The notes under the pieces are model-generated. The model had not been told where the DNA came from. It ran no database searches and was given only the letters and a program-made list of their open reading frames with translations. From positions 1 through 11,200 of the forward strand of contig JAITHR010000188.1 of NCBI GenBank assembly GCA_031279895.1: a stretch of DNA of 11,200 bases, in the 5' to 3' direction. This DNA comes from Spirochaetaceae bacterium. Lineage in GTDB: Bacteria > Spirochaetota > Spirochaetia > Treponematales > Breznakiellaceae. The position numbers were made by a program, and so were the translations under genes. This document shows positions 457 to 11,200 of this stretch, piece by piece (the first letter of the stretch is position 1; each line of letters opens with the position of its first letter).

Positions 457-2082
457 ATGGACGAGCAGTATTCGGGCGAAGAGCATGAAGGGAAACCCTT
501 TGGGAAAGAGGGGAAAGAGGGAACAGAGGGGAGAGCCGGCGAACAGCCGAAAAAGAGAAAGGGGAAGGATCTGGACAGGCTTACGCCCCGCGAGATTGTC
601 GCGGAGCTTGACAAGTATATCGTGGGACAGAAGAAGGCGAAGCGGGCCGTGGCCGTGGCGCTCCGCAACCGCATAAGACGGCTCAAGCTGGAGAGCGATA
701 TGCGCGAGGATATAGCGCCCAAGAATATCCTTATGATAGGGCCCACAGGCGTAGGCAAAACCGAGATTGCCCGCCGCCTTGCGAAGCTGGTGGGATCCCC
801 GTTTATCAAAGTGGAAGCTACCAAGTACACCGAAGTCGGGTATGTGGGGCGGGATGTGGAGTCCATGATTCGGGACCTTATGGCCGCGGGAATACAGATG
901 GTCAAGCAGGAGATGCAGGAAGCTGTTACCGCCGAGGCGGAGCGGCGGACCGAGAACGCGATTTTGGACCTGCTTCTTCCCGGAACCGGCAGGAAGCGCA
1001 AAGACAAGCCCGAACCCCCTGGTCCGGTGGTGCGGCCCATGGGCGCTTTCACGATTAATCCGGAATCCGGAAACGCGGGCCATTCCCTTATCGGCACGGC
1101 AATTCAGGTGGGGATACCGATGACGAACAGGCAGGACGCCGATGACGAGGAATCCGCGCAGGAGGAGGAGGAATACGAGGACCTTGTCGAAGACCCTCCG
1201 GGATCCACGCGGGAGAAGTTCAGAGCCATGCTTCGGAGAGGGGAGCTGGAAGACAAGATGGTGGAGATTACCGTGCAGCAGCCCCCCCAGTTTCCCTCTA
1301 TCGAAATGATAGGCGGCGGCGGCCTGGAAGACATGGAGTCGAGCCTCTCCGGTATTGCCAGCCTCTTCGGGGGGGGCAAGAAAAAGAAACTCGTTACGGT
1401 ACAGCGGGCGCGGGAAATCATTCTCGCCGAGGAATCGGAAAAACTCATCGACCGCGATCGGGTGAGCGACGAGGCGCGCCAGCGGGTTGAGGAGACGGGC
1501 ATCGTGTTTATTGACGAGATCGATAAAATCGCGGTCAAAGGCGACCGGGGAGGCGGGCCCGACGTTTCCCGCGAAGGGGTGCAGCGGGACATACTGCCCA
1601 TTGTGGAAGGGGCCACGGTGACTACCAAATGGGGGCCCGTAAACACGAATCACATTCTCTTCGTGGCAGCCGGCGCTTTCAACGTCAGTAAGCCGTCGGA
1701 CCTTATTCCCGAATTGCAGGGCCGCTTTCCCCTGCGGGTAGAGCTGGATTCCCTTGGGAAAGAAGACTTTCTGCGTATCCTGACCGAGCCTAAGAACGCG
1801 CTTACCAAGCAGTATATCGAGCTTCTGGCAACCGAAAGGGTGTCCATAGACTTTACGGTAGACGCTATCGAGCGCCTCGCGGCTCTGGCGGCGGAGGTCA
1901 ACGCCCGACTGGAAAATATCGGCGCCCGAAGGCTCCACACCATCATGGAAGCGCTCCTTGAGGAGCTGTCTTTCGAGGCGCCGGATATAGCGCCCGCCGA
2001 AATATCCGTAACCGAGGCGTATGTAAACGAAAAACTCACGGATCTTGTGATGGATAATGACCTGGGGCGGTATATTCTGTGA
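457..2082 (+). CDS. hslU: HslU, ATPase/unfoldase subunit of the HslUV protease
   Basis: AAA+ ring that unfolds substrates and threads them into HslV. Visible motifs: TPREIVAELDKYIVGQ (43-58) typical of the HslU N-domain, Walker A GPTGVGKT (95-102), pore loop GYVG (128-131), Walker B VFIDEID (350-356), an arginine-finger region ELQGRF (419-424), sensor-2 GARRL (489-493), and the C-terminal tail DLGRYIL, which in this family docks into HslV. The intermediate (I) domain spans roughly 150-320 and carries an acidic insert (about 227-249). The protein has 541 residues against about 443 in E. coli. The excess is this enlarged I-domain plus a 40-residue Lys/Glu/Gly-rich N-terminal extension. No ATG, GTG or TTG in frame could give a shorter start, and a GGAGGAG ribosome site sits 9 bases before the ATG, so the extension is probably real. 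Confidence 0.96.
   Translation: MDEQYSGEEHEGKPFGKEGKEGTEGRAGEQPKKRKGKDLDRLTPREIVAELDKYIVGQKKAKRAVAVALRNRIRRLKLESDMREDIAPKNILMIGPTGVGKTEIARRLAKLVGSPFIKVEATKYTEVGYVGRDVESMIRDLMAAGIQMVKQEMQEAVTAEAERRTENAILDLLLPGTGRKRKDKPEPPGPVVRPMGAFTINPESGNAGHSLIGTAIQVGIPMTNRQDADDEESAQEEEEYEDLVEDPPGSTREKFRAMLRRGELEDKMVEITVQQPPQFPSIEMIGGGGLEDMESSLSGIASLFGGGKKKKLVTVQRAREIILAEESEKLIDRDRVSDEARQRVEETGIVFIDEIDKIAVKGDRGGGPDVSREGVQRDILPIVEGATVTTKWGPVNTNHILFVAAGAFNVSKPSDLIPELQGRFPLRVELDSLGKEDFLRILTEPKNALTKQYIELLATERVSIDFTVDAIERLAALAAEVNARLENIGARRLHTIMEALLEELSFEAPDIAPAEISVTEAYVNEKLTDLVMDNDLGRYIL
502..528 (+). repeat. In-frame 9-bp tandem repeat in the hslU N-terminal extension
   Basis: Three consecutive 9-base units: GGGAAAGAG, GGGAAAGAG and a diverged GGAACAGAG. 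They encode Gly-Lys-Glu, Gly-Lys-Glu, Gly-Thr-Glu (residues 16-24). The unit is a multiple of three, so copy-number change would lengthen or shorten the disordered N-terminus without a frameshift. Confidence 0.8.
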
Positions 2083-2094
2083 TGCGCTGCGGGA

Positions 2095-2152
2095 ATCTTC
2101 GCAAAACTTCGGGGATTTTGGGGTAAATAACCGCCTGCGATATGCCGAAGAT
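2095..2152 (+). promoter_or_regulatory. Foldable leader between hslU and flgB (possible cis RNA)
   Basis: The 96-base gap before flgB contains a perfect 7-base inverted repeat, ATCTTCG (2095-2101) with CGAAGAT (2146-2152). It can be extended by GCA/TGC (2101-2103 with 2143-2145) if one base bulges. Inside it, CAAAA (2102-2106) can pair with TTTTG (2116-2120) around a loop containing C-UUCG-G, but this pairing competes with the extension. The stem ends 15 bases before the flgB ribosome site. Folding was judged by eye. It overlaps the sigma-28-like promoter candidate, and the two readings are alternatives unless transcription comes from upstream. Confidence 0.4.
2124..2151 (+). promoter_or_regulatory. 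Candidate sigma-28 (FliA)-like promoter upstream of flgB
   Basis: TAAA (2124-2127), a 16-base spacer, then GCCGAAGA (2144-2151). The FliA consensus is TAAA-N15-GCCGATAA. All four bases of the -35 box and six of eight of the -10 box match, with a spacer one base longer than ideal. A start near 2158 would leave a leader of about 20 bases before the flgB TTG. No convincing sigma-70 pair was found in this gap. A match this short can arise by chance. Confidence 0.35.
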
Positions 2153-2167
2153 ATAACAGCTGGGGAA

Positions 2168-2172
2168 GAGGT
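2168..2172 (+). promoter_or_regulatory. Ribosome binding site deciding the TTG start of flgB
   Basis: GAGGT lies 6 bases before the TTG at 2179. No in-frame ATG or GTG lies near it, and the next in-frame ATG is 17 codons inside the conserved N-terminal helix. This ribosome site therefore supports the TTG start. Confidence 0.65.
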
Positions 2173-2178
2173 AAGGAT

Positions 2179-2598
2179 TTGCAGATCAGTAATAATTTTT
2201 TTAAGACCGTTGATCTTATACACAGAGCCATGGATGTAAGTCTCATCCGCCGGGGGGTCATCGCCAACAACCTTGCCAATGCGGAAGTGCCGAACTTCAA
2301 ACGCTCGGAGATCAACTTTGAAAGCGAGCTGAAACGGGCGCTGGAAACGGAAAAACAGCGCCCCCCGATAGAATTGGTTCGGACGGACCCGCGGCATATT
2401 TCCAACTGGCAGCCCCGTGATTACCGCGACGTGCGGCCCCGTCGGGTGGTGGATTTTGTCAGCGCGGCCCAAAATAACGGCAATAATGTGGATATGGAGC
2501 AGGAGCTTACGGGAGCTATGGAGAATCAACTGTTATATATGTTGTTAGCTCAGGCGGAAGCCTTTGAGTTTAATCAAGTTTCGACGGTGTTAAGGTAG
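2179..2598 (+). CDS. flgB: Flagellar basal-body rod protein FlgB
   Basis: Proximal-rod subunit of the flagellar driveshaft in the periplasm, exported by the flagellar type III apparatus. The 139-residue length is normal for FlgB. The N-terminal rod-protein signature is seen as ANNLANAEVPNFKR (about 28-41), the equivalent of the NNIANANTPGYKR block shared by rod and hook proteins. The middle section is variable, with NNGNNVDMEQE (the usual FlgB 'gN.VdlE.E' block) ahead of a C-terminal amphipathic helix that ends FEFNQVSTVLR. There is no Sec signal, as expected. Translation begins at TTG. It is the first gene of the flagellar run, 96 bases after hslU, and flgC follows after 9 bases. Confidence 0.95.
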   Translation: MQISNNFFKTVDLIHRAMDVSLIRRGVIANNLANAEVPNFKRSEINFESELKRALETEKQRPPIELVRTDPRHISNWQPRDYRDVRPRRVVDFVSAAQNNGNNVDMEQELTGAMENQLLYMLLAQAEAFEFNQVSTVLR

Positions 2599-2607
2599 CG
2601 CGGGTAT

Positions 2608-3066
2608 ATGGGTATTTTTAGCGCGATACAGATAGCGTCTACCGGCATGAGCGCGCAGCGGCTGCGGGCGGACATCATTGCCGATAATATCGCAAACGCC
2701 TCTACCACCCGCACCGACGAGGGGGGTCCCTATCGGCGGAGCCGCGTGATTATGCGTCCCAAGGTCGAGGGTCCCTATTGGCACTCCCCGTTCCTACCGG
2801 ATATGCTGGATAACGGCCCCGGAGAAGGGGTGCGGGTTATGGAAATCCAGAAAGATTTTGCCGCCAAAAACAGACTGGTGTATGATCCGACCCATCCTGA
2901 TGCCATTACGTCCGGGCCCAAGGAGGGGTATGTGGAAATGCCCAATGTGGACATTGTTACCGAGATGGTGGATATGATTGCCGCCTCCCGCGCCTATGAA
3001 GCGAACGCCGCCATTATCGACGGTTCCAAAGCGATGTTCCAGCGGGCGCTGGATATAGGAAGGTAG
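2608..3066 (+). CDS. flgC: Flagellar basal-body rod protein FlgC
   Basis: Second proximal-rod protein, exported by the flagellar secretion system and stacked on FliE/FlgB. The 152-residue length is usual for FlgC. The N-terminal helix reads IASTGMSAQRLRADIIADNIANAST, containing the rod/hook family motif. The C-terminal block MPNVDIVTEMVDMIAASRAYEAN is the classic FlgC/FlgG terminal signature (split here: MPNVDIVTEMVDMI then AASRAYEAN). The ribosome site is weak: TAAGG lies 12 bases before the ATG and overlaps the end of flgB, which suggests coupled translation. The flgC stop lies 6 bases before fliE. Confidence 0.96.
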   Translation: MGIFSAIQIASTGMSAQRLRADIIADNIANASTTRTDEGGPYRRSRVIMRPKVEGPYWHSPFLPDMLDNGPGEGVRVMEIQKDFAAKNRLVYDPTHPDAITSGPKEGYVEMPNVDIVTEMVDMIAASRAYEANAAIIDGSKAMFQRALDIGR

Positions 3067-3072
3067 TACAAA

Positions 3073-3444
3073 ATGATAAACGCTCCGCGTTTGATAGCGG
3101 TTGACCGGCTTCCCCTGCAAACAACCCATCCGAAACATTTTGAATCCGGAGTGAATAACGCTTCAACAGGGAAAAATATAGCGGACACGGGAAAGGCCGT
3201 CGGTGCCGACGGAGTTATGCGAAGCGGCGGTTTTGAAGACGCGATGCTCCGCGCCTTGGATAAGGTTTCCGGGGATCAGCAGGAGGCAAGCAATATTATG
3301 CGGGCCGCCATTACCGATCCCGGATCGGTGAACGTCCATGCCATTACCATTGCGCAGGCAAAGGCATCGATGTCATTAAATATTACTCGGACCGTGCTTA
3401 ACCGCTTGGTTCAGGGCTGGAAAGATCTTATCAATACCAGATAG
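3073..3444 (+). CDS. fliE: Flagellar hook-basal body protein FliE
   Basis: Small adaptor between the MS ring (FliF) and the rod, and an early export substrate. The C-terminal half fits FliE well: FEDAMLRALDKVSGDQQEAS, then the MRAAITDPGSVNVHAITIAQ block, then AKASMSLNITRTVLNRLVQG. The N-terminal 45 residues are poorly conserved, as is normal in this family. It has 123 residues against about 105 in enterobacteria, with the extra length at the N-terminus. The ribosome site GGAAGG is 9 bases before the ATG and overlaps the flgC stop. An 84-base gap follows before fliF. Confidence 0.93.
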   Translation: MINAPRLIAVDRLPLQTTHPKHFESGVNNASTGKNIADTGKAVGADGVMRSGGFEDAMLRALDKVSGDQQEASNIMRAAITDPGSVNVHAITIAQAKASMSLNITRTVLNRLVQGWKDLINTR

Positions 3445-3446
3445 AA

Positions 3447-3468
3447 TATAGTATAGTTCTATACTATA
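3447..3468 (+). promoter_or_regulatory. Perfect AT-rich palindrome between fliE and fliF
   Basis: TATAGTATAG (3447-3456), two bases TT, then CTATACTATA (3459-3468): ten perfectly paired bases in each arm, starting three bases after the fliE stop. As RNA it would make an 8-bp stem with a 6-base loop. No T-run follows, so it does not look like an intrinsic terminator. It could be an operator for a dimeric regulator or an mRNA processing/stability hairpin that sets the fliF:fliE ratio. Confidence 0.6.
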
Positions 3469-3471
3469 GAA

Positions 3472-3503
3472 GTCGTCTGAAATCTTAGAAACGCTCGGAC
3501 GGC
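3472..3503 (+). promoter_or_regulatory. Second hairpin in the fliF leader
   Basis: GTCGTCTGA (3472-3480) can pair with TCGGACGGC (3495-3503) in nine pairs, two of them G-U, around a 14-base loop. It stands 14 bases before the GGGGAGGGG ribosome site of fliF and directly follows the palindrome, so the gap can form two successive stem-loops. Folded by eye only. Confidence 0.35.
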
Positions 3504-3528
3504 ATACGAATTCTTCTGGGGAGGGGAT

Positions 3529-5232
3529 ATGGGTGATTGGATTAAAAAGGTTTTAGAACAAATAAAAAAATTATGGGCCAAATGGTCGTTAGTACAAAAA
3601 CTTGTCCTTGTGGGAATCTGCATCGCGGCTATCGCGGGAATAGTCGCGCTATTTTCAGTGTCTTCCGCGCCGACTCTCGTGCCGGTTATTGACGCGCCTA
3701 TTAAAAACGAAGATCTGCGGAACAGGATTATTACGAGAATTAACGCCGAGGGAATACGCTCCTCAGTGTCCGCCAACGGCACCGTCATGGTAAACGACGA
3801 GGCCACCGCCCGCCGAATGCGGGCTATTTTGCTCCGCGAGGATCTTATCCCCGCGGGAACAAATCCCTGGGAAGTGTTTGACCGGGAACGATGGACCATC
3901 ACCGACCTGGAAAGAAACGTAAACCTCCAGCGGGCCATCACCCAGCTAGTAACCGATCATATAAAAGCTATAGACGATGTGGACAACGCCCACGTAACCC
4001 TGGTCTTTCCGAAAGACGAGTTTTTTCGATCGGATCAGCACCCCGTAACCGCCAGCGTCATTATTACCCCTAAGGTTGGAAGTGATATTACTGAAAACCG
4101 CAAGAAAATCGAGGGCATTCAGAAGCTCCTGAAGTTCGCCGTGGCGGGGCTTAAAGATGAAAACATCGTAATCGCCGATTATAACGGCATGGTGCTTAAT
4201 GAATTTGACGGAATGGCTGATTTGGAGCGGCTTGATAATATTAAGAAGGGAGCTGCCCTCATCCGCGCTTTGGAGACCCAGTATCGGACGAGTATTCTCA
4301 GCGCCTTGCAAAGTACCTATACCTCCGAAAGAGTGCGGGACCTTAATGTCAAAATCGATATGGATCTTTCTAAAAAAATGGTCAACGTGGAAGAACATTT
4401 TCCGGTTACCCTAAAAGAGCAAACGCCCGGGCTTTCCTACGACGATTCGCAGCGGGTGCCTTCGCTTACTATATCAGAAAATACTTCTAACACCACTTAC
4501 GAGGGCACAGGGATAAATCCCGAAGGGCCTCCGGGAACAGAGGGGCAGGCCGCGCCGGCGTTTCGGGATATGACTTCTATTGTCGGGAAGGTTACCCAAG
4601 AAACCAAAACCACTAATCAGGTGGTTAATAAAAAGACCTCTCAGGAAGAAAGAAATCCCACCATAGATCGGGTAACGGTTTCGGTTAATATCGACGGGAA
4701 ATGGGACGTGAAGTATGATGAAAAGGGAAAGCCCGTGATTCTTCCGAACGGCTCCATCGAGCGGGAATATACCGCCTTGACAGGGGATCAGATACGGGCG
4801 GTTCAATCGCTTATCCAGGGGGCCATCGGCTATGACGCGGCTCGCGGAGACACGGTAACCGTGCAGAATATCCAGTATGACCGAAGCAAAGAATTTATTC
4901 AGGCGGATGCGCTGTATTTAAAACAGAAGAATATCCAGACCGCCATTTTCATAGGAATCGGGGTAGTCGTACTGGTGCTTATAGGCTTTATGGTATTCCG
5001 GGCGGTTTCCAAAGAACTGGATCGCCGCCGGCGTTTAGAAGAGGAAGAGCGCGCCCGCCGGGAGCAAGCTATGCGGGATCAGATGCTTATGCAAGCGGAG
5101 GAAGGCTCGGAAGTACCGCTGTCCGCCGAAGAGCAGGCCCGCATGAATTTGTACGAAAATATCGCCAATATGGCTAAGGATCATCCCGACGGAGTAGCCC
5201 AACTTATCAGAACGTGGCTTTTGGAGGAATAA
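3529..5232 (+). CDS. fliF: Flagellar MS-ring protein FliF
   Basis: Inner-membrane ring that nucleates the basal body and houses the export gate. It has 567 residues, typical of FliF. A cytoplasmic lead (1-21) precedes transmembrane helix 1 (about 22-43, LVQKLVLVGICIAAIAGIVA). The periplasmic ring-building domains follow, with the conserved stretch NVNLQRAITQLVTDHIKAID and LVFPKDEFF. A Pro/Gly-rich loop around 315-345 is the usual weakly conserved insert. Transmembrane helix 2 is about 472-492, followed by a charged cytoplasmic tail rich in Arg/Glu. The last residues, ENIANMAKDHPDGVAQLIRT then WLLEE, are the FliG-binding tail. A GGGGAGGGG ribosome site is close to the ATG. fliG starts 4 bases after the stop. 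Confidence 0.97.
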   Translation: MGDWIKKVLEQIKKLWAKWSLVQKLVLVGICIAAIAGIVALFSVSSAPTLVPVIDAPIKNEDLRNRIITRINAEGIRSSVSANGTVMVNDEATARRMRAILLREDLIPAGTNPWEVFDRERWTITDLERNVNLQRAITQLVTDHIKAIDDVDNAHVTLVFPKDEFFRSDQHPVTASVIITPKVGSDITENRKKIEGIQKLLKFAVAGLKDENIVIADYNGMVLNEFDGMADLERLDNIKKGAALIRALETQYRTSILSALQSTYTSERVRDLNVKIDMDLSKKMVNVEEHFPVTLKEQTPGLSYDDSQRVPSLTISENTSNTTYEGTGINPEGPPGTEGQAAPAFRDMTSIVGKVTQETKTTNQVVNKKTSQEERNPTIDRVTVSVNIDGKWDVKYDEKGKPVILPNGSIEREYTALTGDQIRAVQSLIQGAIGYDAARGDTVTVQNIQYDRSKEFIQADALYLKQKNIQTAIFIGIGVVVLVLIGFMVFRAVSKELDRRRRLEEEERARREQAMRDQMLMQAEEGSEVPLSAEEQARMNLYENIANMAKDHPDGVAQLIRTWLLEE

Positions 5233-5235
5233 GGT

Positions 5236-6276
5236 ATGGCAAAAGCATCAGCGGCTTCAGGAGCAAAAAAAGGAATAAAAGACACCAACGGAAGACAGAA
5301 GGCCGCCATTTTTCTGGTGTCAATAGGTTCCCAAGTTTCATCGGAAATATTTAAGTACCTGCGGGAAGATGAGATTGAAACCTTAACCTTTGAGATTGCC
5401 CGGCTTGAAACGGTGGAAACTGAGCAAAAGGACGCTATTCTGCAAGAGTTTCAAGAACTTATGATGGCAAATCAATTTATCAGTACCGGCGGTATTGATT
5501 ATGCCCGGGAACTTCTTGAAAAAGCGCTGGGAAGCCAGAAAGCGGTGGATGTTATTAACCGTTTGACGTCCAGCCTGCAAGTCCGTCCTTTTGACTTTAT
5601 CCGCCGGACCGATCCGGCCCATCTGCTTAACTTTATCCAACAGGAACATCCCCAAACGATTGCCCTTATTTTGGCGTATTTAGAGCCGAATAAGGCGTCG
5701 GTCATAATCCAGAACCTCCCCCATGAGGTCCAGACCGACGTGGCGCGGCGAATCGCGACTATGGACCGTACCAGCCCGGAAGTTCTCCGGGAGGTGGAGC
5801 GGGTTCTGGAAAAGAAACTTTCCACCCTGTCCAGCGAAGATTATACTGCCGCCGGCGGCGTGGAAAGTATCGTTGAAATACTTAACCTGGTGGACAGAAC
5901 GTCGGAAAAACAGATCATCGAAGCTCTGGAGGGAGACGATCCCGAATTGGCGGAGGAAATCAAGAAACGGATGTTCGTGTTCGAAGATATTGTTATGCTT
6001 GACGACAAGTCAATCCAGAAGGTGATGCGGGAGGTTGATTCCTCCGAACTGGCCAAGGCGCTCAAATCGGTTGACGCGGAAGTGCAGGATAAAATATTCC
6101 GCAATATGAGTAAGCGCGCCGCCGGGATGCTCAAGGAAGACATGGAGTTTATGGGACCGGTCCGGCTCAAAGATGTGGAAGAGGCCCAACAAAAGATCGT
6201 CTCGATTATCCGCAAGCTCGAGGAAAGCGGCGAAATCATAGTCGCCCGGGCCGGAGAGGACGAATTGGTGGTATAA
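5236..6276 (+). CDS. fliG: Flagellar motor switch protein FliG
   Basis: C-ring protein that converts stator ion flow into rotation and binds FliF and FliM. It has 346 residues, near the usual 330-345. Domains: N-terminal FliF-binding domain (about 20-110), middle domain with the FliM-binding EHPQ motif (137-140) and the GG-containing linker (207-208), and a C-terminal torque domain with MFVF (246-249). The charged torque residues known from E. coli (K264, R281, D288, D289, R297) align with K277, R294, E301, D302 and R310. All charges are kept and one Asp is replaced by Glu. The ribosome site GGAGG lies in the last codons of fliF. fliH begins one base after the stop. Confidence 0.97.
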   Translation: MAKASAASGAKKGIKDTNGRQKAAIFLVSIGSQVSSEIFKYLREDEIETLTFEIARLETVETEQKDAILQEFQELMMANQFISTGGIDYARELLEKALGSQKAVDVINRLTSSLQVRPFDFIRRTDPAHLLNFIQQEHPQTIALILAYLEPNKASVIIQNLPHEVQTDVARRIATMDRTSPEVLREVERVLEKKLSTLSSEDYTAAGGVESIVEILNLVDRTSEKQIIEALEGDDPELAEEIKKRMFVFEDIVMLDDKSIQKVMREVDSSELAKALKSVDAEVQDKIFRNMSKRAAGMLKEDMEFMGPVRLKDVEEAQQKIVSIIRKLEESGEIIVARAGEDELVV

Positions 6277-6277
6277 G

Positions 6278-7228
6278 ATGACAAAAACAGTTTTCAGACC
6301 CGGCGAAATAGAAATCAACGAAACCAAGATCTTTCTTGATCCGCCGCGGACCCTCACCGAAATGATCGTGCCGGAAATAGAAGATATAGTCGAAGAAGAA
6401 TACGAGGGACCCACAATAGAAGAACTTCGTCAGGAAGCGGAACTTTTTAAAAGCCAGTGGGAGTCTGAGCGGGAAACGATGATGCGTTCCGCTAAACTGG
6501 AAGTCGAGCGGATCATTAAAGAGGCGGAAGACGAGGCGTTTCAGGAGGTAAGCCGTAAAACCGGTGAGGCCGAAGCATTGAAAGAAGATGCTCGGGCCGA
6601 AGCGGAACGGATTATCGAAGAAGCAAACCAAAAAGCGCGGGAAATTATCGCCGCTTCCCAGGTCGATATTGAAACGCGGAAAAAAAAGGCGGAAGAGCAA
6701 GGGGAAATACAGGGACGGGAAGCGGGATTTCAGCAGGGCAAAATCGAGGTGGACCGGCTTATTGAGAGAACCCAATTGGTGCTTGAACGCGCTCAGGATA
6801 AACGCGGCGAGATATTGGTGGAAACGGAACAGCGGATTATCGACCTCGTAATCCTTATCGCCCGAAAGGTAATCAAAACGATTTCCGAAAATCAGCGGGA
6901 CGTGGTTGCTGCCAACGTGCAGGAGGCGCTCCGTAAGGTAAAAGGGCGCGGCGATGTTATCATTCGGGTACATACCGCAGATTTACAGCTCACCACCGAC
7001 CATATCAAAGATTTTATTCAAACCCTCGAAGGCCCCCGTAACATTCAGGTTCAAGAAGATTCATCGGTTGACAAAGGGGGCTGTGTCATCGAAACCGATT
7101 TCGGTGAGATAGATGCGCGCATTTCCAGCCAGCTCACGGAATTAGAAACAAAAATTATGGAAACCGTTCCTATAAAGACAAAATCGAAACCCGTCCGTAC
7201 TTCCGCTTCCGATGAAGAGAAAGGCTAA
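6278..7228 (+). CDS. fliH: Flagellar export ATPase regulator/stator FliH
   Basis: Dimeric peripheral stalk that holds the export ATPase FliI under the C-ring and restrains its activity. It has 316 residues, longer than the roughly 235 of Salmonella, and spirochaete FliH proteins are known to be long. Residues about 47-175 are highly charged and predicted coiled coil. They contain a register of glycines G142, G146, G150, G154 (three consecutive GxxxG units), a FliH hallmark. The C-terminal domain (about 180-290) matches the FliH/YscL fold, with IDLVILIARKVIKTI and GGCVIETDFGEIDARI. A GGTGG ribosome site inside the end of fliG and a single base between the genes suggest coupled translation. fliI follows after 5 bases. 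Confidence 0.93.
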   Translation: MTKTVFRPGEIEINETKIFLDPPRTLTEMIVPEIEDIVEEEYEGPTIEELRQEAELFKSQWESERETMMRSAKLEVERIIKEAEDEAFQEVSRKTGEAEALKEDARAEAERIIEEANQKAREIIAASQVDIETRKKKAEEQGEIQGREAGFQQGKIEVDRLIERTQLVLERAQDKRGEILVETEQRIIDLVILIARKVIKTISENQRDVVAANVQEALRKVKGRGDVIIRVHTADLQLTTDHIKDFIQTLEGPRNIQVQEDSSVDKGGCVIETDFGEIDARISSQLTELETKIMETVPIKTKSKPVRTSASDEEKG

Positions 7229-7233
7229 GGGTA

Positions 7234-8643
7234 ATGGAAACCCTGCTTGAAAAGTATATCGAAGTCGCCGAACAGGTGGATCCAATAAAATGCGTGGGGC
7301 GTATCTCCAAGGTTCAGGGCCTGCTCATTGAAAGCCGGGGGCCGGCGGCTATTATCGGAGAAATCTGCCGTATCGAAGCGCCCAGAAAAAGAGGCGTTCT
7401 TCAGGCTGAAGTGGTGGGCCTGCGGGATGAGACTGTCCAGCTTATGGCGTACCAGGAAACCGACGGCATTGAGGTGGGAAACCGGGTTATCGCCTCCGGC
7501 GCGGCACTGGAAGTGGCGGTCTCGCCTAAACTCCTGGGGCGGGTGCTTGACGCGCAGGGAAAACCCTGCGACGGCAGAGGGGATATTCAGTCCGTACTCC
7601 GTTATCCGGCTATGGGTTCCCCGCCGGACCCGCTGAAAAGAAAGCGGGTAACAAAGCGGATACGCACCGGCGTGCGGGCTATTGACGGGCTTCTGACCGT
7701 TGGCAGGGGCCAGCGGCTGGGTATCTTCGCCGGAACCGGCGTGGGAAAATCAACCCTCTTAGGCATGATCGCCCGCAACACCAGCGCGGACGTGAATGTG
7801 GTTGCCCTCATAGGCGAACGGGGCCGGGAAGTCAACGACTTTATTGAAAACGAACTGGGCCCCGCGGGGCTTGCGCGAAGCGTCCTCATTGTTACCCCGT
7901 CCAATTCACCGCCTTTATCCCGTCTGCGCGGCGCGTATGTGGCAACCGCCGTGGCCGAATACTTTCGGGATCAGGGGCTTGACGTGATGTTTCTCTTTGA
8001 TTCGGTAACCCGTTTCGCCCGGGCGCAGCGTGAAATCGGCCTTGCCATCGGGGAACCCCCTGCCACGCGGGGCTATACGCCCAGTATGTTCGACCAGATG
8101 CCGAAACTCCTTGAACGGTGCGGCACCTCTGAAAAGGGAACCATCACCGGTTTTTACACCGTGCTTGTGGACGGCGACGACCTTGACGAGCCGGTATCCG
8201 ATACGGCGCGGGGCATCCTTGACGGACACATCGTACTTTCCCGCTCCCTTGCCCAGCGTTACCATTATCCGGCCATTGACATCCTTGCCAGCATCTCCCG
8301 TCTGGCGCCGGAGGTATCGGGCCCGGCTGTCAATAAAGCCGTGGGGGTTATGCGTCGTCTTATCGCGGTGTACGCCGAAAACGAGGATCTTATCAACGTG
8401 GGGGCCTATCATGCCGGATCAAACGCGGCTGTTGATGAAGCCGTTGAAAAACACGACGCTATTCGGGAGTTCCTCATACAGGAAGTAACCGAAAAATCCT
8501 CCCTGGAGGACACGTTTTCCAAAATAGCCGCTATTACCGGCAGTCCCATACCGGAAACGGAAACAGCCGAACCGGAAGAATCTGACGAAAAGCCGGATTT
8601 GACCTCTTTTCCGGCACAAAAAACTCCTATGGGAGACGCATGA
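7234..8643 (+). CDS. fliI: Flagellum-specific ATP synthase/export ATPase FliI
   Basis: Hexameric ATPase of the flagellar type III export apparatus, related to F1-beta. It has 469 residues, against about 440-457 usually. Seen: an N-terminal beta domain (about 20-95), Walker A AGTGVGKST (166-174), the catalytic-glutamate block GERGREV (194-200), and Walker B with DVMFLFDSVTR (250-260). The block GEPPATRGYTPSMF (273-286) and the export-ATPase signature DEPVSDTARGILDGHIVLSR (318-337) are also present. The last 30 residues are an acidic tail not needed by the family. The Thr-rich signature distinguishes it from F1/V1 subunits, and the neighbours fliH and fliJ settle the identity. The stop overlaps the fliJ start as ATGA. 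Confidence 0.97.
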   Translation: METLLEKYIEVAEQVDPIKCVGRISKVQGLLIESRGPAAIIGEICRIEAPRKRGVLQAEVVGLRDETVQLMAYQETDGIEVGNRVIASGAALEVAVSPKLLGRVLDAQGKPCDGRGDIQSVLRYPAMGSPPDPLKRKRVTKRIRTGVRAIDGLLTVGRGQRLGIFAGTGVGKSTLLGMIARNTSADVNVVALIGERGREVNDFIENELGPAGLARSVLIVTPSNSPPLSRLRGAYVATAVAEYFRDQGLDVMFLFDSVTRFARAQREIGLAIGEPPATRGYTPSMFDQMPKLLERCGTSEKGTITGFYTVLVDGDDLDEPVSDTARGILDGHIVLSRSLAQRYHYPAIDILASISRLAPEVSGPAVNKAVGVMRRLIAVYAENEDLINVGAYHAGSNAAVDEAVEKHDAIREFLIQEVTEKSSLEDTFSKIAAITGSPIPETETAEPEESDEKPDLTSFPAQKTPMGDA

Positions 8644-9089
8644 AACGCTTCGCCTTTACGCTTGAGAAAGTCCTCGGCCTCCGCAGACATAAAGAGCGGG
8701 AAACCGAGATCGCGCTGGGCCGGGCGGTCGGCGCGCTCACCGGCATTGAGCGGAACATCGGCGCGGTACTAACCGAGCGGGCGCGGGTGTCTGAAAGTCC
8801 GCCGTCCGTTTCGGACCTTGCGGCGTTTGACCGGTATATCCTGCGCCTCGAAACGGAAAAAGCGGCGCTTTTGCGGGAGAAAGCCAAAGCGGAGCAAGCG
8901 GTCGGTGAGGCGCGGCAGGTCTATCTTGAAGCGGCCAGGGACCGCAAAATACTCGATCAGGTGAAAGAGCGCCGGCGCGGGGAGTACCGCAAACTCGCGG
9001 CACGGGAAGAAACGAAAATGCTGGACGACCTTGCCAGCAGCGCCAAAATTCGTGCGATAGCCGGTGAGCAAAGGCGGAGGGAATTATGA
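8640..9089 (+). CDS. fliJ: Flagellar export protein FliJ
   Basis: Coiled-coil stalk that sits in the FliI ring, resembles the gamma subunit of F1 and helps couple ATP hydrolysis to export. It has 149 residues, the normal size. The start MKRFAFTLEKVLGLRRHKE is the recognisable FliJ opening (F.f.Le.vL..R...E), and the rest is nearly all charged helix (about 15-145) without membrane segments. Sequence conservation of FliJ is low in general, so the name rests on the opening motif, the size, the coiled coil and the position after fliI. It overlaps fliI by 4 bases and the next gene by 4 bases. Confidence 0.92.
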   Translation: MKRFAFTLEKVLGLRRHKERETEIALGRAVGALTGIERNIGAVLTERARVSESPPSVSDLAAFDRYILRLETEKAALLREKAKAEQAVGEARQVYLEAARDRKILDQVKERRRGEYRKLAAREETKMLDDLASSAKIRAIAGEQRRREL

Positions 9090-9448
9090 TAAAAGGACTG
9101 GCTTTCTGGCTTTTTCTGAGTGCCGGCGCGCTTCTCTTCGGCGCGGGACAGAAGGAAAAAACCTTTCCGCCCCTTGAGTTGGGCAGCCTCCCGGACGGGA
9201 TGTATAAGGGCGCGGCGAAGAACTGGCCTGTGGCGGCGGACGTTGACGTGTATATCCAAGACCGTACCATTACGCGGGTGGTGATTACCCGCCATCAGGA
9301 GGGTCGGGGAGAAAAGGCCGAGGCCGTTACGGACAGGGTTATCGCGTCCCAATCTTTGAACGTCGACGTGGTAAGCGGCGCGACTTTGAGCAGCATCACC
9401 ATCCTGCAAGCTATTGAAAACGCCTGCGGGCCCCCGCAGCGCCCCTAA
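9086..9448 (+). CDS. Secreted small FMN-binding-domain protein
   Basis: A 120-residue protein. Residues 1-20 form a signal peptide: Lys at position 3, a hydrophobic core LAFWLFLSAGALLF, and a likely cleavage after FGA. No lipobox Cys was seen. The mature part (about 38-115) matches the FMN_bind domain found in RnfG, NqrC and related periplasmic flavoproteins: GMYKGAA, then DVDVYIQDRTITRVVI, then SGAT (97-100) followed by LSS. In this family the SGAT Thr (here T100) receives FMN covalently from the flavin transferase ApbE/Ftp. Its start overlaps the fliJ stop (ATGA), and a GGAGGG ribosome site lies inside fliJ, so it belongs to the flagellar transcript. Its partner and role are unknown; periplasmic electron transfer is the family-level guess. 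Confidence 0.85.
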   Translation: MIKGLAFWLFLSAGALLFGAGQKEKTFPPLELGSLPDGMYKGAAKNWPVAADVDVYIQDRTITRVVITRHQEGRGEKAEAVTDRVIASQSLNVDVVSGATLSSITILQAIENACGPPQRP

Positions 9449-9478
9449 TAGGGGAAGCGGGGACGGCCTTTGCGCCGC
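9424..9478 (+). terminator. GC-rich hairpin cluster at the end of the flagellar operon
   Basis: Three hairpins in a row: CTGCGG/CCGCAG (9424-9429 with 9434-9439, inside the last codons), CCCC/GGGG around TAATA (9442-9454, spanning the stop codon), and CGGC/GCCG (9464-9467 with 9474-9477). None is followed by a T-run, so they may slow RNA polymerase or protect the transcript end, but they do not make a standard intrinsic terminator. Confidence 0.3.
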
Positions 9479-9483
9479 ATTGC

Positions 9484-9512
9484 TTGACCCAAGGGATGGC
9501 TTGTAGTATATT
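9484..9512 (+). promoter_or_regulatory. Sigma-70-type promoter for the structured RNA / glycosidase leader
   Basis: TTGACC (9484-9489), exactly 17 bases, then TATATT (9507-9512). Each box differs from consensus (TTGACA, TATAAT) at only one or two positions, and the spacing is ideal. The start would fall near 9519-9521, leaving about 240 untranslated bases before the GTG at 9762. It is the best promoter match seen in the window. Confidence 0.7.
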
Positions 9513-9518
9513 TAAAAA

Positions 9519-9761
9519 ATTGAATAAACCTACTCACGCGGCGTAAGAAAGTTACGTCTATGGAGAGACGGTAAGACCGGGGGAATAGGGCGTTGGAACA
9601 ACCATACAATTCCTCTCTGGGAGGAATTTTGCGAAAACCAAGCGCCTGTCCCTTTGGCACTCTCAATACGGTAGAACACTTGGGGAGGAAGCCGGAGAGC
9701 CGGAACAAGCCCCGGGCCCTCGAAAAAACCTTTAGGCGTGAAGTAGCTGACAGGGGTTTTT
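9519..9761 (+). ncRNA. Unclassified structured RNA or long 5' leader
   Basis: Helices found by eye: closing stem CTAC-TCACGC (9530-9539) with GCGTGA-a-GTAG (9736-9746), ten pairs and one bulge. GGCGTAA/TTACGTC (9540-9546, 9552-9558) closes a GAAAG loop, and CGGT/ACCG (9569-9572, 9576-9579) is a small hairpin. A rod is built from GGGA/TCCC (9581-9584, 9649-9652), GGCG/CGCC (9589-9592, 9643-9646) and TTGG/CCAA (9593-9596, 9638-9641). It is capped by the 8-bp AATTCCTC/GAGGAATT hairpin (9608-9628). Last come CTTGGGG/CCCCGGG (9679-9685, 9710-9716) and CCGG-AGAG-CCGG (9692-9703). I compared it from memory with RNase P, tmRNA, SRP, 6S and the common riboswitches and found no diagnostic motif. It could be a leader controlling the next gene or a stand-alone RNA. 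Any short open frames across it look spurious. Confidence 0.6.
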
Positions 9762-9764
9762 GTG
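9724..9764 (+). promoter_or_regulatory. Hairpin hiding the glycosidase ribosome site (or weak terminator)
   Basis: AAAAACCTTT (9724-9733) can pair with AGGGGTTTTT (9752-9761): ten pairs, two of them G-U. The right arm contains the ribosome site AGGGG (9752-9756), which lies 5 bases before the GTG start. The 18-base loop holds GCGTGAAGTAG, which is also the right strand of the closing stem of the upstream RNA. Forming one helix should therefore strain or exclude the other, as in a riboswitch expression platform, unless the two make a pseudoknot. The CCTTT/AGGGG core followed by five Ts could also act as a poor terminator. Confidence 0.45.
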
Positions 9765-11200
9765 ACAAAGCGTGATTTCCCTAAAATTCACTTTTACGAT
9801 CAGGATTTTGTCGATATTTACGATAAAACATGGGCTTGGATTCAGGACTGCTGGCATATCGGCACTGAAAAGGAACCGAATGAGGAAGCGCCCTCTGAAA
9901 CGGAAAAACCCGCGGCCCCTGAAGGCATTGAGGGGAAATTCTTCTCCTACCCGGGAAGTCCGGTCATCCTCCAGTCAGACGCCATCTTTTCATCCTTTTT
10001 TCTGGTGTACTCAAACCGGATCTATCAGGCGTATCCCACGCTGGACGTGTTCTATAACCGGCAGGAGCCGGACGGAGCCATTCGGTCGGCGTATACCATC
10101 GAAACCGGCCTTCCCGCCGTAGAAGCGGATAACCCCGAGGGACTGGGCATCCCCCTCTTCGCCTGGGCCGAGTTCAACCTCTACCATAAATCGGCGAACA
10201 AGAAACGGGTGAAAGACGTGCTTCCCGTTCTCCACCGGTATACCGAATGGATAGATTCCCGCTTTAAGCGCCCCAACGGGCTCTACGCGGTTCCCGCCGG
10301 CGCGACCAACATGACGAACGCCCCCAGAGAGGGGGCCGAGTATCCTATGGATTTTAATACCATGATGGCGATTAACGTGCTGTATATGTCCGCCCTGGCG
10401 GACATCCTCAATGACAAAGAGGCCAGCTTCCAGTATAAACGCCACTATTTCTCCCTCAAAACCAGAATAAACAACCTTATGTGGGACCCGTCTGAGAAGT
10501 TTTACTACGATATTGACAAAGACGGGCGGCGCCTTCCGGTAAAGATGCTCTCAAGCTACTGGGCGCTTCTCGCGGAAATACCCAACGACGACAAGGCGGA
10601 ACAGCTCATCGCCAAATTGCAGGACCCCCGTCTTTTCGGCGCGCCCCACCCCTTCCCCTCGGTGGCGGTAAGCGATCCGGCCTTTGACGAACTTGGCCGG
10701 GGCTACCGGGGCGCGGTCTTTCCCCACCTCACTTTCATGGTGGTCAAAGGGCTTGAGCGCTACCAGCGGTGGGATCTGGCACGGGAATGTGCGATACGGC
10801 ACCTGTATTTCGTGCTTGACTCCATGAGCCCCGACGGTTCCCACAACCTCAGCCACCACAAGGGGCATCTTTGGGAAGCGTACCTCCCCTTACAAGAGGG
10901 GCCGGCGCGCTGGCCCGAAAATCCGTCGTTTCCCCGGTCCCAGTACCTTACCTACGACGCGCTTTCCACCATCTGCCTCACCATTGAGAACATTGTGGGG
11001 CTGTTTATCTCCCTGCCGCGCAAAACCGTTGACTGGATTATTCCCAGTCTGGAAATTATGGGGGTGGAAAACCTGTCGCTCAAAAAAAACATGATTACCA
11101 TCCTTTCAAACAAAAGCGGCAGAGGGTGGGAAATTCACATGGAAAGCGAAAAACTCTACTATTTCACCATCAATATTCTCGGAAAGAAAAAAAAGACCCT
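9762..11200 (+). CDS. MGH1/GH63-like glycoside hydrolase (3'-truncated)
   Basis: 479 codons are visible and run off the window. The frame is closed upstream by TAG at 9744, and GTG at 9762 with AGGGG 5 bases before it is the only good start. No signal peptide is seen, so the enzyme is probably cytoplasmic. An acidic, Pro-rich linker (about 35-56) precedes an (alpha/alpha)6-barrel of the type shared by trehalases, GH63 and mannosylglycerate hydrolases. Seen blocks: EYPMDFNTMMAINVLYMSAL, MWDPSEKFYYDIDKDGR, GYRGAVFPHLTFMVVKGLER and SPDGSHNLSHHKGHLWEAYL. By analogy with MGH-type enzymes, D197 (in YPMDFN) and E372 (in LWEAYLP) are the likely catalytic acids; this is inference. The last visible part (from about 425) begins a beta-rich C-terminal domain. 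The substrate cannot be told. Confidence 0.85.
   Translation, partial: MTKRDFPKIHFYDQDFVDIYDKTWAWIQDCWHIGTEKEPNEEAPSETEKPAAPEGIEGKFFSYPGSPVILQSDAIFSSFFLVYSNRIYQAYPTLDVFYNRQEPDGAIRSAYTIETGLPAVEADNPEGLGIPLFAWAEFNLYHKSANKKRVKDVLPVLHRYTEWIDSRFKRPNGLYAVPAGATNMTNAPREGAEYPMDFNTMMAINVLYMSALADILNDKEASFQYKRHYFSLKTRINNLMWDPSEKFYYDIDKDGRRLPVKMLSSYWALLAEIPNDDKAEQLIAKLQDPRLFGAPHPFPSVAVSDPAFDELGRGYRGAVFPHLTFMVVKGLERYQRWDLARECAIRHLYFVLDSMSPDGSHNLSHHKGHLWEAYLPLQEGPARWPENPSFPRSQYLTYDALSTICLTIENIVGLFISLPRKTVDWIIPSLEIMGVENLSLKKNMITILSNKSGRGWEIHMESEKLYYFTINILGKKKKT

Follow-up and report, generated by a model that had tools for sequence, protein, structure and literature searches.

The DNA analysed here, hereafter the window, is an 11,200-nt stretch of a contig (JAITHR010000188.1) from a Spirochaetaceae bacterium. 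A flagellar operon occupies positions 457-9089, with FlgB-, FlgC-, FliE-, FliF-, FliG-, FliH-, FliI- and FliJ-like frames recognised by eye from the translations, as was the HslU-like ATPase frame that precedes it. On the forward strand, which carries all the features described below, follows a gene for an FMN_bind-domain protein (9086..9448; Pfam FMN_bind, E 3e-9). The C-terminus of this protein is similar to that of an ortholog (L157) behind whose gene no RNA match was found. The end of the gene looks native, so that the element described here starts 3′ of it. According to the left-end comparison, 9449..9483 lacks the TTAY and GCCGTAAAACCCC of other copies, the left end being decayed or lost, and a sigma70-like promoter, TTGACC-17-TATATT, lies at 9484..9512, at a position comparable to that in other copies. 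With 10 of 12 consensus bases, it is indeed the near-consensus promoter with 17-base spacing announced by the original prediction, and it is directed towards a glycosidase gene. The right end, AGCTGAC (9745..9751), an end point common to the copies, is followed by flanking DNA at the position of a guide (9752..9767), defined by position only, with a length of 16 nt adopted by analogy with the reRNA described for ISDra2 (PMC8612924). This DNA contains a ribosome-site-like AGGGG together with the GTG listed as the start codon of the gene that follows, an unrelated neighbour that encodes an MGH1-like glycoside hydrolase (9762..11198; Pfam PF22422, E 3.2e-27) and runs off the window.

The roughly 240 bases in between had been described as devoid of a convincing gene, in agreement with the mechanical list of frames, which gives a 60-aa frame (9593-9775) and a 107-aa reverse frame for 9519-9761. 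No Y1 TnpA frame is present between the promoter and the right end, and this copy itself carries no tnpB. It had also been stated that no known RNA family fits, and Rfam covariance models gave six matches in the window at E ≤ 5, all below the gathering score and none within 9449-9767; among 14 loci carrying other copies, the same models, HEARO included, matched only a tRNA. A known Rfam class is thus rejected for the window and these loci.

The predicted architecture survives in its promoter and local hairpins but not in its 10-bp closing stem spanning more than 200 bases. Searching 9513-9570 against 9701-9775 with G-U pairs allowed, we found a longest uninterrupted helix of 9 bp (9552-9560 with 9733-9741), and helices of at least 10 bp arise at 49 of 500 randomly drawn window places of the same geometry; moreover, any arm at or beyond 9752 would fall outside the repeat. 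The folding energy of the stretch is unremarkable (z = -1.24), and it is the comparison of copies, with a covariation score reached by none of 500 shuffles, that places its structure above chance.

A dispersed repeat family and its ends

The RNA-bearing stretch of the window is one of six DNA matches in its own draft genome (weakest E 2.5e-4), and such matches occur in 10 of the 195 genomes of the family. R1, a covariance model of the core (128 positions) derived from 15 copies, retrieved one further copy from the same draft and matched 17 of the 195 family genomes and six of the 56 genera, with at least 17 matches each in G125 and G127. An order-wide search of 390 genomes with R1 gave matches in 16, all within the same family, and added no genome outside it. 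Seven of the 72 R1 matches listed run off a contig end, as repeats often do. We kept 71 of these matches, leaving out the second one in L121 (E 1.1e-4); 50 entered a first core alignment, and 47 loci were divided into two kinds by visual inspection. RNAalifold returned a poor structure from this alignment, so the structure used for R1 was drawn by eye, to be superseded later by the omegaRNA plan described below. In the window's genome, two copies, L004 and L005, agree at 116 of 116 nt and then diverge completely, with different flanks, a sequence pattern that suggests recent movement. A 19-base piece of the repeat is also present in the Treponema sp. MAGs Pc512_bin5, Pc512_bin91 and Po218_bin21, which look like members. 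The scan of genome contigs for this 19-mer gave 34 stretches, 17 of them from Treponema; R1, applied to 20 of the 34, matched three Treponema loci and remained silent in 17 non-Treponema loci, which were therefore taken as chance occurrences.

The copies share their right ends, directly after which flanking DNA begins and the sequences diverge at once. First-kind copies end in AGCTGAC (also AGTTGAC) and second-kind copies in TTGTCAA (also GTGTCAA and others); with kinds picked by eye, the end motif searched for is present in 26 of 28 second-kind and 15 of 19 first-kind copies, one of these 15 (L101) having an atypical end. At the other extremity, TTAY precedes 24 of 25 recognisable left ends, the exception being L100, and is followed by seven bases in 21 matches or eight in L071, L089 and L099, and then by GCCGTAAA or a near variant. 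Fixed ends and a left end placed behind a short T-rich motif are known for IS200/IS605 elements, as in IS608. Intact copies display the hallmarks of IS200/IS605 and PATE elements, namely subterminal hairpins (at the right end, for example, CCCC.GCCTTTAGGC.GGGG), fixed ends and insertion behind a short T-rich motif; in ISDra2, TTGAT is described as both target and TAM (PMC8612924). The window copy is of the first kind, with an AGCTGAC right end, a missing or decayed left end and a broken right-end hairpin.

Several loci reveal kinship with tnpB. Remnants of this gene at L030, L031, L034 and L038-L042 match the RNA, and in L034 and L039 the remnant extends into this right-end RNA, with the TnpB frame covering stem 1 and the bases that follow it. 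TnpB frames of 376 aa (L134) and 406 aa (L152) read into GGGTAGCTGAC. At L028, L029, L035, L132 and L143, TnpB frames overlap or precede second-kind RNA that ends in TTGTCAA and has the order stem 1, GCTTGGGGAG, AAGACC, short hairpin, GAAC(C/T)AAGAATC, right-end hairpin and GTTGTCAA, with a stem 1 loop reading GGGATA in L132 and GGGAC(A/G) in the other four. The position characteristic of an omegaRNA, at the right end and overlapping or following tnpB, is thus found in L034, L039, L028, L029, L132, L143 and L152. In copies without a reading frame, the place of the short hairpin of the tnpB-bearing relatives is taken by a domain roughly 70-80 nt long, whose junctions are strongly conserved. Within this domain, L108, L112 and L113 hold an additional stretch (e.g. 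CTACTACTGATAGTAG, a potential small hairpin). When 13 TnpB frames served as queries, a TnpB remnant was detected upstream of the RNA in one of the 71 matches, 17 of which had less than 500 nt of upstream sequence.

PF07282 matches occur in 24 of the 195 family genomes and are commoner in those bearing the RNA (9 of 17 versus 15 of 178; P 1.9e-5 by a Fisher test that ignores relatedness). Eight of the 17 RNA-bearing genomes, all drafts of 62-81% completeness, have no PF07282 match; they include that of the window, where neither PF07282 nor PF01385 matched. One of the copies in the latter draft (L002:1-117) is of the tnpB-coding scaffold type and lies at a contig edge, so that a tnpB gene or remnant may sit in the unassembled part. 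Y1 transposase matches (L043-L062) number 8 in G123, 16 in G124 and 11 in G125, with one in the window's genome (G000).

The RNA also has a third carrier. In G041, an 81%-complete draft in which no TnpB was found, the core lies inside elements of 192-273 bp that are bounded by terminal inverted repeats of 23 bp, CGCAATTATCCCCTTACGTATAA, and have no right end of the IS605 type (L170, L173-L175, L177, L178 and L180). Twenty loci were fetched with the repeat end, and nine of them match R1, with L180 being the L183 copy, L173 matching just at E 0.0025 and L171 being a G023 locus; the 116-bp forms L187 and L188 are without the RNA core. Matching 7-8-bp, mostly AT-rich flanks, like a target duplication, were seen by eye in L170, L175, L178 and L180, and none in L173, L174 and L177.

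Helix plan and covariation

The ISDra2 omegaRNA is built of stem 1, a stem 2 formed by four canonical pairs, stems 3a and 3b, stem 4 and a pseudoknot between bases -5 to -3 and -105 to -103 (PMC10097598), and this helix order recurs in the repeat copies. In the window, alignment A4 and pair counts delimit an omegaRNA-type scaffold of about 232 nt (9519..9751), whose 5′ end is inferred from the promoter. Stem 1 (9533..9547) contains one C-A mismatch in this copy, and its loop CGGC (9539-9542), the proposed pseudoknot arm, is able to pair with GCTG (9746-9749) within the right end. Stem 2 joins CTAT (9558..9561) to GTAG (9671-9674) in A4, and stem 3a joins GAGA (9565..9568) to TCTC (9661-9664), as read by eye and supported by other copies, although the window copy makes only two of the pairs in the A4 columns. 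They enclose the enlarged stem 3b domain (9577..9657), whose junctions are strongly conserved in alignments A1, A3 and A4 and which consists of an outer stem CCGGGGG/CCCTTTGG, an inner stem TTGG (9593-9596)/CCAA (9638-9641) and a hairpin at 9608-9628. The latter is the perfect 8-bp hairpin AATTCCTC/GAGGAATT of the original prediction, and it undergoes changes on both sides among copies. Further downstream lie an extra helix, CTTGGGG/CCCCGGG (9679..9716), common to the tnpB-remnant loci L034 and L039, and the right-end hairpin or stem 4 (9717..9744; A4, by eye), which is decayed in the window copy. The second hairpin that had been singled out, CGTAA-GAAAG-TTACG, does exist at 9542-9556 but is perfect in the window copy only: each of the 13 remaining A4 rows keeps three or four of its five pairs, and the conserved stem 1 shares bases with its 5′ arm.

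The original prediction had made its RNA depend on compensatory changes among homologues, and these were found. Alignment A3 comprises 22 of the 28 second-kind copies (L087, L100, L114, L119, L120 and L130 were dropped because of truncation, alteration or the lack of a recognised end) and A4 comprises 14 of the 19 first-kind copies (without L091, L101, L105, L110 and L115), the g13, g45 and remaining matches lying outside both. Paired cells amount to 85.8% of 937 in A3 and 87.5% of 720 in A4. In both alignments, none of 500 shuffles attains the covariation score, which also exceeds that of every slid version of the structure; our structures have an advantage over this slid control because they were drawn by eye from rows of the very alignments in which they were counted. 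Weaker measures are less discriminating: in A3, both-side changes are matched in 36 of 500 shuffles and do not exceed those of one slid version, and further pair types are matched in 31 of 500 shuffles in A3 and 182 of 500 in A4. Stems 1 and 3a account for most of the both-side changes in second-kind copies; in first-kind copies, most of them fall within these two stems, stem 3b and the hairpin of stem 3b. Stems 2 and 4 display no covariation; in A4, 92.9% of the stem 2 cells are paired, without any both-side change.

The pseudoknot arms differ jointly between the two kinds, with CAAC, CAGC or CGGC facing GUUG or GCUG in one and GACA facing UGUC in the other. In the first kind (CAAC-GUUG, CAGC-GCUG and CGGC-GCUG), 52 of 56 pairs form in 14 copies, four of which have a mismatch (permutation P 0.09); in the second kind, ten of the 14 readable rows are fully paired and four have one mismatch. 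For stem 1 and the pseudoknot of A4 considered together, the number of both-side-changed cells is reached in 6 of 500 shuffles, and one slid version gives six such cells against five.

Identity of the element and competing explanations

In all likelihood, the window RNA is the right-end omegaRNA/reRNA scaffold of a PATE-like, non-autonomous element of the IS200/IS605 type that lacks both tnpA and tnpB. More broadly, features of the sequence give good support to an element of IS605 type that is non-autonomous and codes for an omegaRNA whose stem 3b is enlarged; these features are dispersed copies with fixed ends, TTAY left ends, kinship with tnpB, the helix plan with its compensatory changes, promoter-like sites before many copies and the enlarged stem 3b itself. 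Hence a structured, promoter-led RNA without an Rfam match was correctly foreseen, and the suggestion that it might be a diverged, so far unrecognised representative of a known class agrees with a TnpB-type omegaRNA; the idea of a riboswitch or housekeeping RNA upstream of a glycosidase gene gives way to a multi-copy mobile element with unrelated genes downstream elsewhere.

A different reading, which we regard as possible though improbable, is that the repeat is decayed transposon debris, whose RNA would be a functionless by-product of the DNA hairpins needed by TnpA. The broken ends of the window copy and the failure to find tnpB in its draft genome are consistent with it, as is a known PATE made of a left end, a tnpB tail and a right end (PMC7290912). 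Against it stand compensatory changes in stems distant from the ends, promoters that recur among g1 and g45 copies, and stem 3b junction motifs common to copies of six genera, a conservation that is partly selected for because R1 finds copies by the same similarity. To our knowledge, these motifs are not needed for TnpA.

The promoters invite another explanation, which we consider less probable still, in which the element would be kept as a mobile promoter whose outward transcript activates the neighbouring gene. Sixty-one copies extend far enough upstream to be examined, and at a cut-off similar to that of the window promoter 34 of them show a promoter with 16-18-base spacing no more than 130 nt before the core, versus 6.1 expected from mononucleotide shuffles; in 31 of these 34, about 33-61 nt separate the -10 box from the core. 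Promoter-bearing copies belong mostly to genus g1, with additions from g45 (L068, L083, L118 and L128); the 27 copies without a promoter by this cut-off, under which promoters with a TTGCAT first hexamer fall (e.g. L067 and L072, by eye), lie mostly outside g1 and g45; in g15 and g13, most copies are without a promoter at this level. Moreover, the right end adjoins a ribosome-site-like stretch in the window copy and in L092, and for the 64 copies whose downstream sequence is long enough the main neighbour is on the same strand in 39, on the opposite strand in 22 and absent in three (binomial P 0.04). This same-strand excess is, however, small and based on mechanical frames, and a mobile promoter would leave the omegaRNA helices and the conserved stem 3b domain unexplained.

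A cis-acting riboswitch or leader RNA controlling the glycosidase gene, for which the promoter and structured RNA directly 5′ of that gene on the same strand and the 39:22 excess might speak, is largely refuted and most improbable: the copies are dispersed and some near-identical, the FMN_bind loci of three relatives (L157-L159) have no RNA match nearby, and no conserved link to one gene or pathway emerged from eight other copies scanned (nine with the window, chosen from the 39 same-strand cases), whose downstream proteins belong to unrelated families (PEPCK, chemoreceptor-like sensor, UvrB, SRP54, PHP-like (weak), class II tRNA synthetase, UvrD-type helicase and GFO/IDH).

If the RNA is the guide scaffold of a non-autonomous element, the latter is probably serviced in trans, and a TnpB acting in trans possibly uses the stand-alone omegaRNA. 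Co-occurrence with PF07282 helps this view, and RNA-bearing genomes without a detected TnpB, that of the window included, weaken it. In the mechanism that we propose, a TnpA produced elsewhere would mobilise the elements, and the promoter would yield the scaffold, with a 3′ extension copying neighbouring DNA as the guide. A TnpB produced elsewhere could then use this scaffold to cut empty sites (TTAY plus guide), and repair after cutting would restore the element. The window copy itself is probably an immobile relic, from which transcription may still extend into the glycosidase gene. A bolder proposal, to which we lend limited credence, is that the enlarged omegaRNA is a free-standing, promoter-driven selfish guide-RNA gene with a conserved stem 3b domain, which acts in trans by recruiting a TnpB or some other factor and has travelled on at least three mobile chassis: two lineages of IS605-like ends (AGCTGAC and TTGTCAA) and the short 23-bp terminal-inverted-repeat elements of G041. 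Use in trans would mean that a single TnpB might serve tens of copies, each with its own guide, and would illustrate the way in which elements without genes take advantage of RNA-guided nucleases.

Comparison with known guide RNA systems

No element of this type was recognised in searches of the open-access literature on stand-alone or non-autonomous TnpB guide RNAs or on TnpB/IS605 in Treponema. Stand-alone IscB omegaRNAs (HEARO), with no nuclease gene beside the guide loci, were reportedly described by Altae-Tran et al. in 2021, and the repeat resembles them in forming guide RNA loci without an adjacent nuclease gene. IscB guides are located at the 5′ end, and the repeat RNA gives no HEARO match. 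TldR, another TnpB-derived guide RNA system, is described as phage-encoded (PMC13418256). The repeat in the window also lies near flagellar genes, a proximity that looks accidental because copies are dispersed, and the protein search here used the PF07282 and PF01385 models.

A further counterpart is the PATE-like IS605 derivative of Halanaerobium hydrogeniformans, of about 271 nt, which has a 28-nt left end with a hairpin, the last 58 nt of tnpB, the whole right end and no tnpA (PMC7290912). The available text of that report deals with one sequence and describes no promoter or guide-RNA role, whereas the present family has many copies and an enlarged RNA.

ISDra2 and its omegaRNA/reRNA offer another parallel, drawn here from plan rather than from direct sequence similarity. 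Both RNAs occupy the right end, with overlap of the tnpB 3′ end in relatives (PMC8612924, PMC10097598); both have stems 2, 3a, 3b and 4 and a stem 1 loop that can pair with the last scaffold bases (PMC10097598); and both have flanking DNA at the guide position and a T-rich target motif on the left (PMC8612924). Unlike ISDra2, the repeat carries its own promoter and no tnpB, the window's kind has the extra helix at 9679-9716, and stem 3b is enlarged to a conserved domain of 70-80 nt. If the RNAs are indeed used in trans, this would also be a naturally occurring TnpB guide RNA whose stem 3b position holds a large, conserved insertion; the corresponding part is disordered in the ISDra2 structure (PMC10097598).
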